From the NCBI GenBank assembly GCA_029935455.1, contig JAOZKI010000008.1, positions 1-54,463 on the forward strand: a stretch of DNA of 54,463 bases, written 5' to 3'. Every line of letters starts with the position of its first letter. Position 1 is the first letter of the stretch. Of this stretch, positions 22,435 to 31,787 are shown piece by piece. A model generated the notes under the pieces. The model had not been told where the DNA came from. It made no database searches and saw only the letters and a list, made by a program, of their open reading frames with translations. This DNA comes from Lysobacterales bacterium (GTDB lineage: Bacteria > Pseudomonadota > Gammaproteobacteria > Xanthomonadales > SZUA-36). Position numbers and translations under genes: made by a program.

Positions 22435-23460
22435 TTAAAAACTCCACCCCACCGAGGTGGTGAGACCCCAGTCCGTTTGTTCCGCCGTCACGTCGATCGG
22501 GTCGCTGTCATAGGCAAGATAAAACTCCATGGACCAGAACAGATCCTCAATCAACTCAAGCTTGAAAGTAGAGCGGAGGTCCGAACGGATACGACCGCTT
22601 TCCGTGAGACTGGGGTAGACCGACAGCGTCGTATCAACTGAGCGCTCCGGCGAGGCAAACATAAAGTGTCGGTAGCGCGCGGTGGCCTGCATCTCAACAC
22701 TGCTGTTACGCTCCCCGTCCACCGGACGTTCCTCGGTAGCGATGGCGCCGAGCGCCACCCGGAACCAGGTCTGATTGGTTTTACGCAGATAGGTGCCATA
22801 GGTCGCACCGCCAAAGATACGCAGTTGCAGACCGAGTGCATCATTACTATCGAGACCCATGTTCCAGCTTCGGAAGCGGCGACCCTCCAGCAGCACCTCA
22901 TTGGCCAGCCTAAGTTCCTGACGGTTCTGGTCCGCCACATTGCTCTGGCGCGTGACATCGGATCGCATGGTGCCTTCGACAATTCTTCTTTCCGTGCGGT
23001 AGAGAAGATCAGCTGACATGGTGAAATTCGCGATATCCGTGGCCTTGGAGTAGTCCAGGCCCACGCCCACATCCAGATCAATTTTGTCCCAGAAACTGGC
23101 CTTCACCGGCCAGCCGGACACCACATCATCGGGATCCAGAGTGATCGGGCCAGTGACTGTCAGCACCTCAATACGGTCCTGCCCCTCAGGCTTCTGCAGC
23201 TTGCCCAGCCAACGCTGACCTTCCACGGTTTCAAAAGCCTGGGTTTTGTCGCTAATGACCTGGGCAATAAAGCGCCACTCGATATTCACCGTGCCCATGG
23301 TGTCGGTGGAGTACTGCAGAAGACCCGCCTCAAGCTTTTTGATTTCGCCCGTAAGCCGGTCACCATTGGTAAGGATGACAATGTCGGTCTTTGCTGCCTC
23401 TACGGACTGATGGGCCAGCAGGAAAAACGGCAGGAGAAAAAGCAGCAAGCGCATGGACAT
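22435..23460 (-). CDS. DUF481 (YdiY-like) outer-membrane protein
   Basis: A 341-residue exported protein of unknown function. The signal peptide is MSMRLLLFLLPFFLLAHQSVEA. A small N-terminal domain (DIVILTNGDRLTGEIKKLE, an SH3-like segment often found before DUF481) is followed by a beta-barrel-like DUF481 region (about 130-341) of alternating strands with an LNxD/D-rich pattern. The chain ends with an aromatic residue (TSVGWSF), so it is probably an outer-membrane barrel. Only 101 bp separate it from the TonB-receptor relic, which lies on the same strand. Confidence 0.75.
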   Translation of the reverse strand: MSMRLLLFLLPFFLLAHQSVEAAKTDIVILTNGDRLTGEIKKLEAGLLQYSTDTMGTVNIEWRFIAQVISDKTQAFETVEGQRWLGKLQKPEGQDRIEVLTVTGPITLDPDDVVSGWPVKASFWDKIDLDVGVGLDYSKATDIANFTMSADLLYRTERRIVEGTMRSDVTRQSNVADQNRQELRLANEVLLEGRRFRSWNMGLDSNDALGLQLRIFGGATYGTYLRKTNQTWFRVALGAIATEERPVDGERNSSVEMQATARYRHFMFASPERSVDTTLSVYPSLTESGRIRSDLRSTFKLELIEDLFWSMEFYLAYDSDPIDVTAEQTDWGLTTSVGWSF

Positions 23461-23561
23461 GTCATACCTCGACCCAGAACAAAAACCACGACGTGATTTT
23501 TCATTCTAGCGCGACCATGTCCGCGCTTCAGCAACCGAAGGTGTGGACAAAGTCGCCCCCG

Positions 23562-23870
23562 CTAGCGGAAGACATACTCCAGCCCCAAGGAGCGTTCCCA
23601 ACCCACTGGCTGCGTCACTCGTGGTGCTTCGTTACCTTGCGTCAATCGGATCTGAGGATTAAGCAGGTTTTTGAGCTTACCCTTCAATTTCCAGTTACCT
23701 AACACCTGGCTGTAAACAAAGTCGAGCGACGGCCGAGGTTGCTCGTAAATATCTGGCGCGCCCTGCACACGGACCTCCACGATACGTTCTCCAAAAACGT
23801 TGTAAAGCAACGCCGCGTTGATCTCTCGATCAGGATCCTCATACCCGATTTGAAAATTCCACACGTGCAA
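23562..23870 (-). pseudogene. 3' relic of a TonB-dependent outer-membrane receptor
   Basis: About 100 codons encode only the last beta-strands of a TonB-dependent receptor: NFQIGYEDPDREINAALLYN, VFGERIVEVRVQGAPDIYEQ, PSLDFVYSQVLGNWKLKGKL, then KNLLNPQ and the terminal SLGLEYVFR. These are the standard C-terminal blocks of large (usually 800-1000 residue) receptors. Upstream of base ~23870 the frame enters unrelated Arg-rich sequence. There is no plug domain, TonB box or signal peptide, and the only start codon is a TTG inside the domain. The gene is dead; its 5' part was lost at the junction with the plus-strand relic next to it. Confidence 0.8.
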
Positions 23871-24196
23871 CCTTCGCCGCTGCCGGTAGCCCGGATGCGC
23901 TGTCCGGGACGCTGACCATCTAAAACAGCATCGTAAACTGTGCTTCCAACCTTGATGAAGAGAACGGCGACGCCTGGAGTGTGGCCGCTTGGTTCAACGC
24001 AGCAGGCTCTAATCAGAAACGGGATTCAGCTCTGGAAAACGTCCTGTTCCCGCCGGCCAATGCAGACTACCTGCAGGGTGCCGAGCTAGATCGCGTACGT
24101 TTTGGAGCGTTTTCCCAGAACCTTGGCCACAGCGGCGCTAGCGGTGAAGGCCATGTCTGGACCGCGGGTTGGACACTGCAAAACTTCAATCGCTAA
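23871..24196 (+). pseudogene. 3' relic of a surface/exported protein gene
   Basis: On the plus strand the frame reads SPDALSGTLTI, a TAA at 23921, then NSIVNCASNLDEENGDAWSV, AAWFNAAGSNQ and the end FGAFSQN...WTAGWTLQNFNR. The closing pattern GAF...WTxGWT recurs at the C-terminus of some large exported surface proteins; this is recalled from family knowledge and not checked here. No 5' part, signal peptide or start is present, and the in-frame TAA shows decay. A good terminator still follows at 24217. It abuts the receptor relic back to back. Confidence 0.55.
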
Positions 24197-24216
24197 AACA
24201 ATGGCAGGGAAACTTC

Positions 24217-24242
24217 AGGCGCGCTTCGGCGCGCCTTTTTTT
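24217..24242 (+). terminator. Rho-independent terminator kept after the dead surface-protein gene
   Basis: A perfect 8-bp stem AGGCGCGC/GCGCGCCT (24217-24224 / 24229-24236) with a TTCG tetraloop and a run of seven T (24236-24242). It points along the plus strand and so belongs to the relic gene. The PiT gene ends 3 bp beyond it on the other strand. Confidence 0.85.
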
Positions 24243-24244
24243 GG

Positions 24245-25501
24245 CTAAGGCGTACCGAAAATCGACTTGAGGATAAAAAAGAACAGAATAGCCAGCAAAC
24301 CTCCGGCAGGCAGCGTCACCACCCAGGAAAGGAAAATACTGCCAACGACAGGTAGGTTGATAGCACCGACACCCCGAGCAAAACCAACGCCCAAGACGGC
24401 GCCGACCAGCGTGTGGGTCGTTGAGATCGGAATACCCGTTCCAGACGCTAGCACCACCGTGGTCGCAGCCGCCAGCTCCGCCGCAAAGCCCCGGGAGGGG
24501 GTCAGCTCGGTAATCTTGCGGCCCACCGTGCGGATCACTTTAAAGCCATAGGTTGCGAGGCCGAACACAATTCCAAAAGCACCCAAAAGCAGAACCCAGC
24601 TGGGCAGTGCGGACTTTTGCGTGACCGCACCCGAGGTGACCGTGCTGACTACGGCCGCCACCGGGCCCACTGCATTGGCCACATCATTCGATCCGTGCGC
24701 AAATGCCATACCGCAAGCGGTGAAGATCATCAGTACACCAAAGATTTTTTCGACATTGGTGAAGCGCAAATCCAAGTCCGCTGAAGGATCGATTTTCAGC
24801 CGCCGGATTAGCATGATGCCAATACCCATGGTCACCAGGCCCACCGCCGCCGCGATGGCGTAGGATTCCAGCATGGATAATTCAAGGCCGACGTGCTTCA
24901 GGCCCTTGAACAAGGTGACCAGCGCCATGATGAAGCCCACCATAAAGATATAGATCGGCACATAGCGGCGAGCATTCCGGATCGGATCATCGGTGCCCAG
25001 AATCAGTTTCTGGACGCTCATGAAAATGCCAAAAGCGATGCAACCGCTGAGTACGGGTGAAATGACCCAGGACGCCGCAATCTGACCGACCTTGTCCCAT
25101 TTAACCGCCTCCATTCCAATACCGACGGCCGCAAACCCTACGATGGCACCGACAATCGAGTGTGTCGTTGAAACGGGCCAACCACGTCGAGAGGCAATCG
25201 CAAGCCAAATCCCCGCCGCCAGCAGGGCTGACAGCATGCCAAACACCAGCGTGTCTGGTGTGTCGATGATGGCGCTGGTGTCGATAATGCCCTTGCGGAT
25301 GGTCGAGGTTACCTGACCACCCGCCAGAAAAGCGCCGGCAAACTCAAACACAGCAGCAACCAGTATCGCCTGTTTTATGGTCAGAGCGCGGGCACCAACC
25401 GAGGTCGCCATGGCGTTGGCAACGTCATTGGCACCTATCCCCCAGGCCATAAACAAACCGAAGGCAGCCGCCATGACTAGGTACCAGGTCATGTAATCCA
25501 T
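24245..25501 (-). CDS. PiT-family inorganic phosphate transporter
   Basis: Low-affinity phosphate:cation symporter of the inner membrane. It has 418 residues and about ten membrane segments in two inverted repeats. Each repeat carries the PiT signature: FMAWGIGANDVANAMATSVG near residue 17 and GMAFAHGSNDVANAVGPVAA near residue 260, with a further STTHSIVGAIVGF / STTHTLVGAVLGV pair. No DUF47 (PhoU-like) partner is adjacent, and no Pho box is seen upstream, so it is probably constitutive. It is oriented opposite to the pst operon. Confidence 0.95.
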   Translation of the reverse strand: MDYMTWYLVMAAAFGLFMAWGIGANDVANAMATSVGARALTIKQAILVAAVFEFAGAFLAGGQVTSTIRKGIIDTSAIIDTPDTLVFGMLSALLAAGIWLAIASRRGWPVSTTHSIVGAIVGFAAVGIGMEAVKWDKVGQIAASWVISPVLSGCIAFGIFMSVQKLILGTDDPIRNARRYVPIYIFMVGFIMALVTLFKGLKHVGLELSMLESYAIAAAVGLVTMGIGIMLIRRLKIDPSADLDLRFTNVEKIFGVLMIFTACGMAFAHGSNDVANAVGPVAAVVSTVTSGAVTQKSALPSWVLLLGAFGIVFGLATYGFKVIRTVGRKITELTPSRGFAAELAAATTVVLASGTGIPISTTHTLVGAVLGVGFARGVGAINLPVVGSIFLSWVVTLPAGGLLAILFFFILKSIFGTP

Positions 25502-25678
25502 CGAAGGTGTCTCCCTATCGTATGAGCATCAATTGCAGTCGGTTTCCGGCCTGCTGTGCGCAATCGGCGATCGCGCCCGTCTTAGCGATCAGCCGGTAAA
25601 GAAAGATGACCTGTACCGGAGGTGATTCTGCTTCTAGTAGAAATAGCGTTTGCTGCAGCCGGGGGGCGCTTCGTCAGC

Positions 25679-26080
25679 CTAACGCTCAAGCACATCAATG
25701 CGTCCCAGCGTTTCCGAGCAGCGGGTGCGTTCCGCTTTGCCGAGGCCCCTTTTAACGAGGCTGTCCAACGCGCCGATCACGGTCTGGGCTTCCTTGACGG
25801 CCGCAGCGCAGACCTTCCCCGGAGCTTTATACCTTCCGCGCATCATCTCTGGCAACAGCAAATTTCGCCCAATGACTAGATGCGCCCCATCACAACGGGC
25901 CGCAAGGACTCGATCCTGTAGCGTGCGCACCGCCAGCACGTCGTGGCGGGCTACCGGCATCAACAGCCGAGTTGGCGGAAGCAAGCGTAAATGCCGTCGT
26001 AACTGGTCGGCAGATGCGCACAGGACACGATGAGTTCTGGTTGCTAATGGCCTCCGGCATCGTCGTCTGCGAGCACACAT
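25679..26080 (-). CDS. Unrecognised ORF, possibly a decayed gene
   Basis: I do not recognise this 133-codon frame. The N-terminal third is Arg/Cys-rich and unconvincing. From about residue 28 it looks protein-like (LRRHLRLLPPTRLLMPVARH, DVLAVRTLQDRVLAARCDGA, a helix near VCAAAVKEAQTVIGALDSLV) and has GC-biased third positions. An in-frame TGA lies just upstream (26095-26093), and plausible coding continues in other frames on the same strand, so a frameshifted remnant is possible. The whole 25502-26343 stretch between PiT and pstC otherwise shows only an inverted repeat GCCCGC/GCGGGC (26106-26134) and the Pho box. Confidence 0.3.
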   Translation of the reverse strand: MCARRRRCRRPLATRTHRVLCASADQLRRHLRLLPPTRLLMPVARHDVLAVRTLQDRVLAARCDGAHLVIGRNLLLPEMMRGRYKAPGKVCAAAVKEAQTVIGALDSLVKRGLGKAERTRCSETLGRIDVLER

Positions 26081-26258
26081 TCGGGTAGGCCATCAGCGCT
26101 GGCGCGCCCGCAAGGGCTCCTTTCTGAGGCGGGCTTCAAGGAAGAACGGGTGAAGTGGCGAAAATATCGTTAAAATACCCGTTCGACATCGATAAATCCC
26201 CTGTTGGAACCACCCTGCATCCCTTGGGTTAGCAGGTTGGTCACCACGGCTGACACGG

Positions 26259-26287
26259 CTGTAATAATCTTGTCATATTTCACACAT
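26259..26287 (+). promoter_or_regulatory. Tandem Pho box before pstC
   Basis: Half-sites every 11 bp: CTGTAAT (26259-26265), TTGTCAT (26270-26276) and a weaker CACACAT (26281-26287). The first pair is a good PhoB site. A -10 region about 10 bp downstream (near CATAAC, 26285-26290) would put the transcript start at about 26297-26300. Confidence 0.8.
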
Positions 26288-26343
26288 AACATGCTGCCAT
26301 GAGAGCTCATAGCAACGCCGACGGTATCGCTGACCGTCGCGAC

Positions 26344-28548
26344 ATGGACGATTTCCACAAGCGCCGTCAACTAAAGGACGCCCTGGCCCGATGGCTGATT
26401 GCTGTCGGCGGGGTGGCTGTGATTGGCGCTGTCGTTTTGATTTTGTTCTACCTCCTGTGGGTCGTCTTTCCCCTGTTCCTACCCTCCTCATCAGAGTCAG
26501 AGACGCTAGGACAGCGGAGCGCCTGGACTGATGAGCCGCCCCTGTATTTGAGCGTGGAGGAACAACTTGAAGTCGGCACACGCGTAACGGCCGACGGCAC
26601 CATCGAGTTTTTCCAGACCGAGGATTTAGCGCCGCTTGCACAGGAGCGCTTTGCACCCCTGGCGGAGACGAGACTAAGCGCTGCGGCAGAATCAGATACC
26701 CAGCCGGCGCAACTCGCGCTACTGGCGGAGAGTGGTGAGATATTCCTGCTGGAGAGACGCTTCTCAACTAATTACGATGACGGCATTGAAAATCGTCGCA
26801 TCGAGCCAGGCCTGGATTTTCCCTATGGCACCCAATGGCGACCGTTGACGGACGGCTCGCCTGTTGTCGATTTCACGTTCAGCAGTGGTGACAACTCGCT
26901 GGTGGTTGCTGCCGTAAGCAGGAATCAGCTGTTTGTCAGCTATGGCAGCATGGAGCAAAACTTCCTCACCGGTGAGCGTACGCTGGATAGCCGCAACCTG
27001 ACGGCCGAATTGGGCTTCACGGCAACCAGCATCGCAATAAGCGGTAATCACCGTTGGGCTTACCTGGGCGATGATCAGGGGCGGATTCACCGTTATGACC
27101 TGCCGTCGATGAACCCAAGCCAGACATTAAAGGTTTCTGACGCAGCCATTACTGAACTGCGCATGCTACTAGGCAGCATTTCCGTACTCGCCGGCGACGC
27201 TGACGGCGGTATCAATCAGTTGTTTCCGGTGCGTGATGACGACAATGCCTACCAGTTGACCCCGATTCGCTCTTTTCCCGCGCAGAAAGGCGCGATTGAG
27301 CGGATACAGACCGAATACCGACGCAAAGGTTTTATCGCTATCGATAGCACCGGCATGCTGGGCGTTTATCACTCTACCGCCGGTCAGCGGGTCATGCTGG
27401 AACCCGTTGATGCGATCTCACCAGAGGCTTTCGCGCTATCACCACGGGCCAATGGCCTACTTACCATCGGGGCTAATGGTGCAGCCGAGCTTCTGCGGCT
27501 CGACAACAAGCATCCGGAGATCTCATTCTCATCCTTGTGGGGCAAGGTTTGGTACGAGAACTATGCGGAGCCGGCCCATATCTGGCAGTCCTCATCAGCC
27601 AGTAACGATTTCGAGCCTAAGTTCAGCCTTACCCCGCTGGCTTTCGGAACGCTCAAGGCGGCCCTGTATGCCATGCTATTTGCGGTCCCCTTCGCGCTGG
27701 CCGGTGCGGCCTTCACTGCTTATTTCATGGCACCGGGCCTACGCCAGGTAGTCAAGCCGACCATTGAGATTATGGCGGCACTGCCGACCGTTATTTTGGG
27801 CTTTCTCGCCGGTCTCTGGTTTGCGCCGTTTCTGGAAGAAAACTTGGCCGGGGTATTTGCCATCTTCCTGGTCGTCCCTGTCGGGCTGCTGATCTTCTCC
27901 TGGTTCGGGTCACAGAACCCGTTCCTGCGTCGTCTGGCGCCAGAGGGCTGGGAGCCCGCGCTACTAATCCCGGTCATGATCGTTTTGGTGTGGGCGGCCC
28001 TGGCGCTTGCAGGCCCCATCCAGGACCTGTTCTTTGCGGGCAACATGCGCCTCTGGTTCAGCCAGGAACTGGGTATCAGTTACGACCAGCGCAACGCGCT
28101 GGTGGTCGGGGTTGCCATGGGCTTTGCCGTCATCCCGACCATCTTCTCCATTGCAGAAGATGCTGTCTTTGGCGTGCCCAAAAGTCTGTCTGACGGATCC
28201 CTTGCGCTGGGCGCCACACGCTGGCAAACCATGATTCGCGTGATTCTCCCTACCGCCAGCCCGGGCATTTTCTCCGGTTTGATGATTGGGCTGGGCCGCG
28301 CAGTGGGCGAAACCATGATCGTGCTCATGGCCACCGGCAATACGCCTATCATGGACTGGAACCTGTTCGAAGGCATGCGCACGCTGGCTGCCAACATCGC
28401 GGTCGAAATGCCGGAATCGGAAGTGAACTCGTCCCACTACCGCATTCTCTTCCTGGCCGCATTGACCCTGTTCGTCTTTACCTTTGTCGTCAATACCGGT
28501 GCGGAAGTCATCCGTCAGCGGTTACGCGAGAAATACAGTTCCCTGTGA
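26344..28548 (+). CDS. pstC: Phosphate ABC transporter permease PstC, large form
   Basis: Inner-membrane permease of the high-affinity Pst importer. It has 734 residues, more than twice E. coli PstC (319). A first membrane segment (about 16-44) is followed by a ~380-residue periplasmic insertion with beta-propeller-like repeats (YLGDDQGRIHRYDLPS, LTIGANGAAELLRLDNK), then the permease core from about residue 436. The core carries the EAA-type loop [21 protein letters not shown]. The frame opens at ATG 26299, but the Pho box implies transcription begins at about that base, so MDDFHKRRQ at 26344 is preferred. pstA follows after 10 nt. Confidence 0.9.
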   Translation: MDDFHKRRQLKDALARWLIAVGGVAVIGAVVLILFYLLWVVFPLFLPSSSESETLGQRSAWTDEPPLYLSVEEQLEVGTRVTADGTIEFFQTEDLAPLAQERFAPLAETRLSAAAESDTQPAQLALLAESGEIFLLERRFSTNYDDGIENRRIEPGLDFPYGTQWRPLTDGSPVVDFTFSSGDNSLVVAAVSRNQLFVSYGSMEQNFLTGERTLDSRNLTAELGFTATSIAISGNHRWAYLGDDQGRIHRYDLPSMNPSQTLKVSDAAITELRMLLGSISVLAGDADGGINQLFPVRDDDNAYQLTPIRSFPAQKGAIERIQTEYRRKGFIAIDSTGMLGVYHSTAGQRVMLEPVDAISPEAFALSPRANGLLTIGANGAAELLRLDNKHPEISFSSLWGKVWYENYAEPAHIWQSSSASNDFEPKFSLTPLAFGTLKAALYAMLFAVPFALAGAAFTAYFMAPGLRQVVKPTIEIMAALPTVILGFLAGLWFAPFLEENLAGVFAIFLVVPVGLLIFSWFGSQNPFLRRLAPEGWEPALLIPVMIVLVWAALALAGPIQDLFFAGNMRLWFSQELGISYDQRNALVVGVAMGFAVIPTIFSIAEDAVFGVPKSLSDGSLALGATRWQTMIRVILPTASPGIFSGLMIGLGRAVGETMIVLMATGNTPIMDWNLFEGMRTLAANIAVEMPESEVNSSHYRILFLAALTLFVFTFVVNTGAEVIRQRLREKYSSL

Positions 28549-28558
28549 GGCACCGGAC

Positions 28559-30217
28559 ATGAAGAACTTCAAGAAATGGGTAGCCACCGGTGCGCCATGG
28601 ATCTGGCTTAACGCCGCTGCGGTCACCGCTTGTCTGCTGCTTGTGGTTGGACTGCTCAGCCTGATCGCTTGGCGGGGCCTCGGGCACTTCTGGCCGGCCA
28701 GCATCCAGGAGTGGATCGTACAAACCGAAACCGGCGAACAGGTCACCCTGGCTGGCCAGCTGCGTGAAACGGAGACCATTCCTGCCGAGCGACTCCGTGA
28801 AGCAGGTGTCGATCTGCCGCCAGAGCTGGTGGAGGTGGACCGCACTCTGCTCAAGGTGGGTAACCGCGATGTAACCGGCCAGGACTTCCGCTGGGTGCTG
28901 GAACCCTTTGTACTTGAACGCAGCGAACCGCGATCACTCTTCCTGCTTGAACGCGATGAGTGGGGCGCCTTTATTGGCCGTCTGGTTGGTATCAAAGAGG
29001 ACGGAACCGCTGTCCGTGCCGACGATATCAACAGCGAGTTTGAGCAGCGCCTCGCACGCGCGGAGTCCCTGCGCGCAGAAATCCATGATCTAGAGCGCGG
29101 AGAGATCGGGAAAATCAATTACCGGCTGGAGCGACTGCGGCTGGCACAGCGCAAACTGGAGCTAAAGGGAGATAACGATCCGAAAGCCCGCGCCGAGATT
29201 GCACGCGAGCGTGAGGGCCTGGAAGCAGAATACAGGGCACTCGAAGAACGGCTGATTGATTTTGACCGACAGATCGGCCGCGACAGCGTCGTGATGCGCA
29301 CAGCTAATGGCGAGGAACGCGACCTGCCTTTGGCCACTATCCTGCACGCCTATCAGCCAAATGCCATGGGCCTCGGCAGCAAGATGGTTCACTACCTGGG
29401 CAAGGTATGGGAGTTTCTCAGCGAGGAACCGCGCGAGGCGAACACAGAGGGCGGTATCTTTCCCGCCATTTTTGGCACCATTCTTATGGTGCTGCTGATG
29501 AGCGTAGTGGTCACGCCGTTTGGGGTCATTGCAGCCGTTTATTTGAAAGAATATGCGACGCAGGGTTTGCTGACCCGATCCATTCGCGTCGCCGTTAATA
29601 ATCTGGCCGGTGTACCGTCTATTGTCTACGGAGTGTTCGGCCTGGGCTTCTTTGTTTATACCATTGGCAGCAGTCTCGACGAACTTTTCTTTGAGTCGGC
29701 ACTGCCCGCCCCCACCTTTGGCACTGGCGGCTTGTTCTGGGCCTCTTTGACGCTCGCTCTCATGACCCTTCCCGTTGTGATTGTCTCAACGGAGGAAGGG
29801 CTGGCGAGAATCCCGCGGGCCATCCGTGAAGGCAGCCTGGCACTCGGGGCCACCAAATGGGAAACGCTATGGCGCACCATCTTACCCATGGCCAGCCCGG
29901 CGATCATGACCGGCATGATTCTGGCGATCGCACGTGCCGCTGGTGAGGTAGCACCGCTGATGCTGGTGGGCGTGGTGAAACTCGCGCCTTCCTTACCGCT
30001 GGATGGCAATGCGCCATTCCTGCATCTGGAACGCAAATTCATGCACCTTGGGTTTCATATCTACGATGTGGGCTTTCAGAGCCCTAACGTGGAAGCGGCC
30101 CGCCCCCTGGTTTATGCCACCGCACTACTGCTGGTGATCGTGACGATTCTGTTGAACATTGTTGCTATTACTGTAAGAAACCGCTTGCGTGAAAAATACC
30201 GTGGATTAGAAACATGA
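28559..30217 (+). CDS. pstA: Phosphate ABC transporter permease PstA, large form
   Basis: Second Pst permease subunit. It has 552 residues against about 296 in E. coli. TM1 (about 15-40) is followed by a ~250-residue periplasmic insertion containing a charged coiled coil at about 161-237 ([40 protein letters not shown]). The permease core begins near residue 298 ([20 protein letters not shown]) and has the EAA loop [20 protein letters not shown]. The ATG at 28559 has GAGG 8-9 nt upstream. Its stop overlaps the pstB ATG by 4 nt. Confidence 0.92.
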
Positions 30218-31044
30218 CCAACGACGCAACTGAAATGAACCTCGCACCTGATCACAGCCACCCGGCCATCCCAGAGGATCTGGACCTGGGTCCGGTGGAA
30301 ATCACCGTGGATAAGCTGAACCTCTGGTATGGGGAAGCTCAGGCATTGAAAGATATCGACATGCAGATAGCAGACCGGAAGGTAACGGCCTTTATTGGCC
30401 CCTCCGGCTGCGGTAAATCAACGCTGCTACGGTGCTTCAATCGCATGAATGACCTCATCGACAGCTGTCGTGTGGATGGCAGCATCCGGCTCAACGGCAA
30501 GGACATTAACGCGAATACCGTTGATGTGGCCGAGCTGCGCCGGGAGGTGGGCATGGTATTTCAGAAGCCCAACCCCTTCCCCAAGTCTATCTACGAAAAC
30601 GTGGCTTATGGCTTGCGCATCCAGGGCGTGAACAAACGCCGCGAACTGGACGAAACCGTGGAGTGGGCACTGAAAGGCGCGGCTCTCTGGGATGAGGTGA
30701 AAGATCGGTTGCATACACCGGCTTTCGGTCTGTCCGGCGGCCAACAGCAGCGCCTGGTGATCGCGCGAGCCATCGCCGTTCAACCCGAGGTGATCTTGCT
30801 GGACGAGCCATGCTCGGCACTGGATCCGATCTCTACGCTCAAGGTGGAAGAACTGATCAATGAGCTGAAGAAGGATTACACCATCATTATCGTGACCCAT
30901 AACATGCAGCAAGCTGCGCGGGTTTCAGACTTCACCGCATTTATGTACCTTGGTGAATTGATCGAGTTTGGCGAAACCGACCAGGTCTTCACCCGGCCGC
31001 GTATCAAACAAACGGAAGACTACATCACCGGCCGCTACGGCTAA
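30214..31044 (+). CDS. pstB: Phosphate ABC transporter ATP-binding protein PstB
   Basis: ATPase that drives phosphate import. It has 276 residues; the first ~28 are an extra acidic leader. Walker A is GPSGCGKST at 62-70, the signature LSGGQQQRL begins at 173, and Walker B is [12 protein letters not shown] near 194. The switch His lies in [14 protein letters not shown], and the PstB-specific [16 protein letters not shown] is present. It is coupled to pstA (ATGA), and phoU follows after 26 bp. Confidence 0.97.
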
Positions 31045-31070
31045 GCCAGCAGCGCCGGGGGAGCAAAGCC

Positions 31071-31787
31071 ATGGACAAGCTACATCTCAGTGAACACATC
31101 TCGCAGCAGTTCAACGAAGAACTGGAAGAAGTCCGCAGCAAGGTGCTGCAAATGGGCGGGGTGGTCGAGGAACAATTGAACAAAGCGGTTAAGGCGTTAA
31201 TTACCGGTTCGGAAGACCTGGCCGCCGAGGTGGTGCAGAACGACGCCAGGGTAAATGCGCTGGAAGTTGAGATCGATGACGACTGCACGCGAATCGTGGC
31301 TCGCCGCCAGCCAGCTGCCAGTGATCTGCGCCTGGTCATGGCGGTGATCCGCACCATCAACGACCTCGAACGTATTGGTGATGAAGTGAAGCGCGTGGCG
31401 AAGACGGTCGGCGACGAACTCAGAGGCACGTTGGAGGAAGACGTTCGCCAGGAACTGGAGCATATGGGCGAACAGGTCAGCCGCATGCTGACCAGCGTTC
31501 TCGATGCCTTCGCACGCACGGATCCGGACGCTGCGCTGGCCGTATCCAAAGCGGATCGCAAGGTGGACGTGAAGTACAAAGCCATCACGCGACAGCTCAT
31601 CAGCTATATGATGCAAGATCACAGCTCGATCCCCGTCATTCTCAACGTTTTGTGGGCTGCGCGTGCCCTGGAGCGCATTGGCGATCGCTGTCAAAACATC
31701 GCTGAATACGTCATTTACCTGGTGATCGGAAAAAATGTCCGCTACGCCAGCATCGACGAAATCATGGCAGAACTAGAAGCCGACTAA
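31071..31787 (+). CDS. phoU: Phosphate signalling protein PhoU
   Basis: Cytoplasmic negative regulator that couples Pst activity to PhoR. It has 238 residues and two PhoU repeats. Metal-binding motifs fit E/DxxxD: VEIDDDCTRIVARRQP and RTINDLERIGDEVKRVAK in repeat 1, ERIGDRCQNIAEYVIYLV in repeat 2. It is the last gene of the pstC-pstA-pstB-phoU unit. A GGGGGAG sequence before the ATG is the probable ribosome-binding site. Confidence 0.96.
   Translation: MDKLHLSEHISQQFNEELEEVRSKVLQMGGVVEEQLNKAVKALITGSEDLAAEVVQNDARVNALEVEIDDDCTRIVARRQPAASDLRLVMAVIRTINDLERIGDEVKRVAKTVGDELRGTLEEDVRQELEHMGEQVSRMLTSVLDAFARTDPDAALAVSKADRKVDVKYKAITRQLISYMMQDHSSIPVILNVLWAARALERIGDRCQNIAEYVIYLVIGKNVRYASIDEIMAELEAD

Follow-up and report, generated by a model that had tools for sequence, protein, structure and literature searches.

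What leaves the 3′ ends of two genes standing back to back, each without its beginning? This question is raised by a site in a 54,463-base contig, the whole of which was analysed and is called the window here. The contig belongs to a draft genome (G000, 2.63 Mb in 130 contigs) of a bacterium that is distantly allied to Xanthomonas. An initial annotation had read the site as a divergent pair of genes, encoding a receptor and a surface protein, from which one deletion had removed both 5′ halves and the shared promoter. With a probability of roughly 0.86, the junction is the scar left when an entire TonB transport locus was lost. This gene set probably encoded a nutrient importer that was induced when phosphate ran short.

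Two gene ends and their flanks

The two remnants are 3′ ends whose transcription points away from one another, with the intervening sequence missing (Table 1). The left one aligns with residues 954–1059 of the 1059-residue TonB-dependent receptor of the relative G004 (63% identity, E 4e-31; E 5.9e-41 in a separate homology search), and its DNA aligns with the sister genome G003 as far as position 23866. A Pfam search of this piece returned no match, with neither a Plug domain nor a complete barrel present, and TIGR01782 reached 19.6 bits, under its cut-off of 310. Judged by its sequence, the piece is a fragment of a member of the TonB-dependent receptor family and not itself a member. The right-hand remnant aligns with residues 492–602 of the 606-residue surface protein of G004 (E 3e-12), with the homologue of a further genome, G007 (E 1.6e-17), and with five intact homologues at 37–43%.

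Both gene assignments of the initial annotation hold, but its boundary (receptor at 23562–23870, surface protein from about 23871) lies four bases off: the receptor ends at 23866 and the surface-protein DNA begins at 23867. The TTG “start” at 23868–23870 lies within the DNA that aligns to the surface protein, outside the receptor DNA. Compared with the full-length homologues in relatives, each remnant lacks its 5′ part, as had been proposed, and both sides match internal points of full-length genes. Ends without homology to full-length proteins had been named as a sign against the proposal; full-length homologues were matched at both ends. The TAA that had been pointed out is indeed in frame within the surface-protein remnant, and 90 stop-free codons follow it (chance about 3%). 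The plus-strand terminator that had been called intact is present as a terminator-like hairpin with a T tail. Alone, however, it is weak evidence, since that kilobase holds three such sites and its shuffled versions average 1.6.

Table 1. Features at and around the junction (positions in the window).
Feature	Position	Strand	Remarks
DUF481 gene, intact, left flank	22435–23460	-	PF04338 E 3e-14; adjoins the receptor side of the locus in relatives
TonB-dependent receptor, 3′ remnant	23562–23866	-	last ~101 codons, residues ~957–1059 of ~1059; stop codon 23562–23564
Junction	23866/23867	.	G003 continues into receptor codons, the window does not
Partner surface protein, 3′ remnant	23867–24196	+	last ~109 codons, residues ~492–606 of 606; stop codon 24194–24196
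In-frame TAA within surface-protein remnant	23921–23923	+	
Terminator-like hairpin with T tail	24217–24244	+	3′ of the surface-protein remnant, before the convergent PiT gene
PiT phosphate transporter gene, intact, right flank	24245–25501	-	PF01384 E 1e-120; 80–82% to G004/G001
DUF47 (PhoU_div) pseudogene beside PiT	25518–26190	-	upper end placed by eye; PF01865 E 1e-8, profile 55–150 of 214

The order of EpmA, DUF481, receptor and surface protein in the window is as in G004. The PiT-PstC-PstB-PhoU block (24245–31784), by comparison, has the opposite orientation relative to EpmA-DUF481 from that in G004 (L076) and G001 (L023). Because this block is reversed, PiT and not PhoU adjoins the scar. 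The DUF47 pseudogene is present as fragments in different frames when compared with the 237–239-residue ORFs of G004 and G001, with a stop at 25679–25681; its N-terminal piece is visible in G003 (L079:15-239), where there is a stop as well. On the other flank, G004 encodes an LTXXQ protein and a regulator/kinase pair resembling CpxAR beside the receptor (L021:8287-10963). Neither G000 nor G003 has these genes (window 22435–23561); in both, DUF481 directly adjoins the receptor.

The intact locus and its promoter region

The layout from which the scar may be derived was found in five relatives (loci L085, L086, L090, L091 and L095). Here the surface-protein gene is divergent from an operon in the order DUF3450-ExbB-ExbB-ExbD-TonB-TPR-receptor. 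The two genes whose ends survive in the window are thus truly divergent, but they are not the neighbours that the initial annotation had taken them for: between them lie the promoter region and six genes (DUF3450, two of ExbB type, ExbD, TonB and TPR). The distance between the points equivalent to 23866 and 23867 is 9,572 bp in L085, 9,680 bp in L086, 9,474 bp in L090, 9,459 bp in L091 and 9,631 bp in L095. From this spacing, the scar stands for 9.46–9.68 kb including the six genes, and the idea that only two 5′ halves and a promoter were lost has to be given up. The promoter region is missing as had been stated, although it was common to the surface-protein gene and the whole receptor-ending operon. 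A sixth locus, L088, is divergent too, its surface-protein gene being truncated by the contig end. A domain search of the G004 locus recovered DUF3450, two MotA_ExbB, ExbD, TonB_C and TPR domains and a receptor with CarboxypepD_reg, Plug and barrel.

A wider survey kept 80 loci out of 107 relatives. Receptor and surface-protein gene occur in one locus in 64 of the 80, which come from several phyla. The pair runs in the same direction in 57 loci (surface-protein gene downstream of the receptor in 42, upstream in 15) and is divergent in seven, one of which is the scar of G007 described below. The fetched locus holds no surface-protein gene in the remaining 16, several of them on short contigs. 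When G002 (L081) is compared with its congener G004 (L021), the energiser genes share 84–98%, but the receptor only 49% and the surface protein only 35%. G018 (L077), from another genus, shares 61% with G004 in the receptor and 41% in the surface protein. The pair therefore seems to have been replaced as a unit, the energisers of G002 being close to those of G004 while the pair is closer in G018.

The stretches between the surface-protein and DUF3450 genes of six loci were scanned for PhoB boxes, using a consensus with 14 scored positions and 500 mononucleotide shuffles per stretch. With this consensus, the best site matches at 14/14 positions in L086 and 13/14 in L085 (0/500 shuffles in both), at 12/14 in L090 and L095 (0/500 and 1/500), and at 11/14 in L088 and L091 (6/500 and 15/500). 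In the window, the piece from DUF481 to the hairpin scores 9/14 at best. Given these sites in the relatives, and with Pst, PhoU and PhoB encoded nearby, the lost locus was probably under phosphate control, exerted by PhoB via the common promoter region.

In the ancestor, accordingly, the surface-protein gene and the seven-gene operon would have pointed in opposite directions, flanked by EpmA-DUF481 on one side and by the phosphate genes on the other, and would have shared a promoter region probably under PhoB control. A deletion, in a single step or in nested steps, would then have had its endpoints inside the two outermost genes, removing ~9.5–9.7 kb and leaving the 3′ ends back to back. Such a loss may have been neutral or favoured once the system had fallen out of use. 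That the endpoints fall within the outer genes could be due to selection against deletions reaching DUF481 or PiT.

Age of the joint and competing histories

The sister genome G003, also a MAG, is colinear with the window over 10.2 kb (97.4% identity), and the homology stops exactly at 23866. Past this point, G003 runs into receptor codons, with a 196-codon open end at the contig start. Since G003 reads through into the receptor, the receptor end seen in the window is recent and younger than the split between the two genomes. The G003 contig ends 288 bp beyond the junction point, and its next piece begins at window 25958. No surface protein, locus ExbB or DUF3450 was found in the G003 assembly, and a DNA search with window 23860–26500 returned only the contig from 25958, hence no PiT. 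Because all of these are missing from its assembly, G003 is not evidence of the intact state, and it may also have lost the system.

Over the length of the receptor remnant, G000 and G003 differ by five synonymous codon changes and one nonsynonymous one (junction codon excluded), whereas 74% nonsynonymous changes are expected under neutrality (P 0.0055). This balance shows that constraint acted on the stretch during most of the period after the split. Together with a receptor piece that is open throughout, the constraint might suggest that both short ORFs were retained as functional small genes, which is nevertheless scarcely credible. The receptor piece has neither plug domain nor 5′ end and its only start was made by the junction, while the surface-protein piece is broken by the TAA. 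The single nonsynonymous change puts Arg in the window where the nine remaining rows of alignment A1 all have glycine. The initial annotation had named relatives with the same short ORFs as a sign against a deletion; no other genome was found to carry them. The constraint points rather to a very recent loss, a retained function being less likely.

The junction rests on one draft assembly, which leads to the question of whether the two stretches were joined during assembly while the locus is intact in the organism. The draft is of the metagenome type with its 130 contigs, and the sister assembly breaks near the same point. Searches of the own genome with the receptor and the surface protein, however, match only the remnants, and no orthologue of the locus DUF3450, the long ExbB or the kinase was found, the best matches being distant paralogues. 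This absence covers these five proteins, in an assembly rated 100% complete and 1.6% contaminated. The 1.1-kb region around the junction has a single match in the assembly, so no repeat that could mislead an assembler was seen, and the TAA inside the surface-protein piece also speaks against an intact gene. A chimera is therefore improbable, and we infer a true deletion. It was also considered whether the genome had lost its last TonB system. This was ruled out, as G000 retains 18 Plug-domain matches and ExbB-type matches elsewhere.

The number of deletions is less clear. The single event of the initial annotation is the simplest history, but nested deletions fit the joint equally well, and it is quite possible, if somewhat short of an even chance, that the locus was eroded stepwise by several of them. 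G001, G004 and G005 have kinase, regulator and LTXXQ genes beside the receptor or the surface-protein gene. Neither G000 nor G003 has them any longer next to DUF481, so one loss or more must have occurred before these two genomes split. On the other side, an intermediate state was not seen in the lineage, and the preference for a single event is one of simplicity.

Stepwise erosion would also agree with the second joint, in G007 (a MAG from Lake Baikal, 65% complete), which retains longer pieces of both genes than the window. Here the surface protein from residue ~380 on and the receptor from residue ~816 on stand back to back. The tails are separated by ~80–100 bp (L022:3527-3625) that match neither gene. 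This spacer contains an ATG and the Shine-Dalgarno-like motif AAGGAGG, which makes it look as though the start of the surface-protein gene itself had been kept. Neither the locus ExbB nor DUF3450 was found in the G007 assembly. Since breakpoints, flanking genes and genus all differ from those of the window, an independent loss is likelier than a shared one, and a shared loss that was later enlarged is likewise less likely. Within the family, the receptor was found at E ≤ 1e-20 in 12 of 39 genomes (nine over the full 392-aa query and three in part, namely G000, G003 and G007), so its absence is the commoner state.

The surface protein and comparison with known systems

The surface protein of G004 gave no Pfam match above the cut-off and no NCBIfam match, the G018 protein gave no Pfam match, and the best match in a PDB sequence search had an E-value of 0.75. 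The AlphaFold model of the G004 protein (mean pLDDT 84.6) has an N-terminal beta-rich domain followed by a right-handed beta-helix at residues 172–591. In VIA-align, this model was matched to beta-helix polysaccharide lyases, epimerases and tailspikes, with Z 18.8–23.9 among the 50 matches listed. Foldseek alone returned nothing at E ≤ 0.001, with lipocalin-like nitrophorins among its top rows. The protein is thus modelled as a right-handed beta-helix, and a fold in common with other proteins does not reveal a function.

This association of a receptor with a beta-helix partner would resemble that of ElpS (cc0170) with the TonB-dependent receptor Cc0171 in Caulobacter crescentus. ElpS is reported to be a secreted or surface protein of about 50 kDa with a lipobox, encoded beside Cc0171 and made on phosphate starvation, and the pair to co-occur in many genomes (PMC2996285). 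Compared by context only, several surface-protein homologues are of like size (434–479 aa), and three have a VGC/cysteine motif near the N-terminus. In contrast, the surface protein of the lineage studied here has ~600 residues with an additional domain at the N-terminus, and no lipobox was seen on visual inspection. Its neighbours are Pst, PhoU and ExbBD rather than type II secretion genes, and the pair of the window is dead. Type II secretion neighbours were also sought around the pair in L096, L109 and L133, where the ten ORFs inspected yielded no secretion genes. It is tempting, but doubtful, to go further and regard surface protein and receptor as an obligate uptake couple of phosphate starvation. 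The surface protein would then capture or process a phosphorus-bearing polymer for the receptor, both would be acquired, exchanged and lost together, and the scars of the window and of G007 would be natural double knock-outs.

The site allows one step of reductive evolution to be dated and sized in an uncultured gammaproteobacterial lineage, which dropped a probably phosphate-controlled TonB importer and kept its PiT and Pst transporters. The better lead is the widespread pair itself. Of a TonB-ExbB-ExbD outer-membrane transport locus of the kind that includes DUF3450 and a long ExbB-type protein, no more than the final tenth of the receptor survives in the window, and no energiser. In shrinking genomes, deletion-derived pseudogene remnants appear as truncated, interrupted 3′ ends between intact flanking genes. 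The window is alike in all of these points, including a second pseudogene (DUF47) nearby. It differs in being unusually clear, with the 3′ ends of two opposite transcription units joined and a similar joint in another genome. The case is one of ordinary reductive gene loss that is unusually readable.
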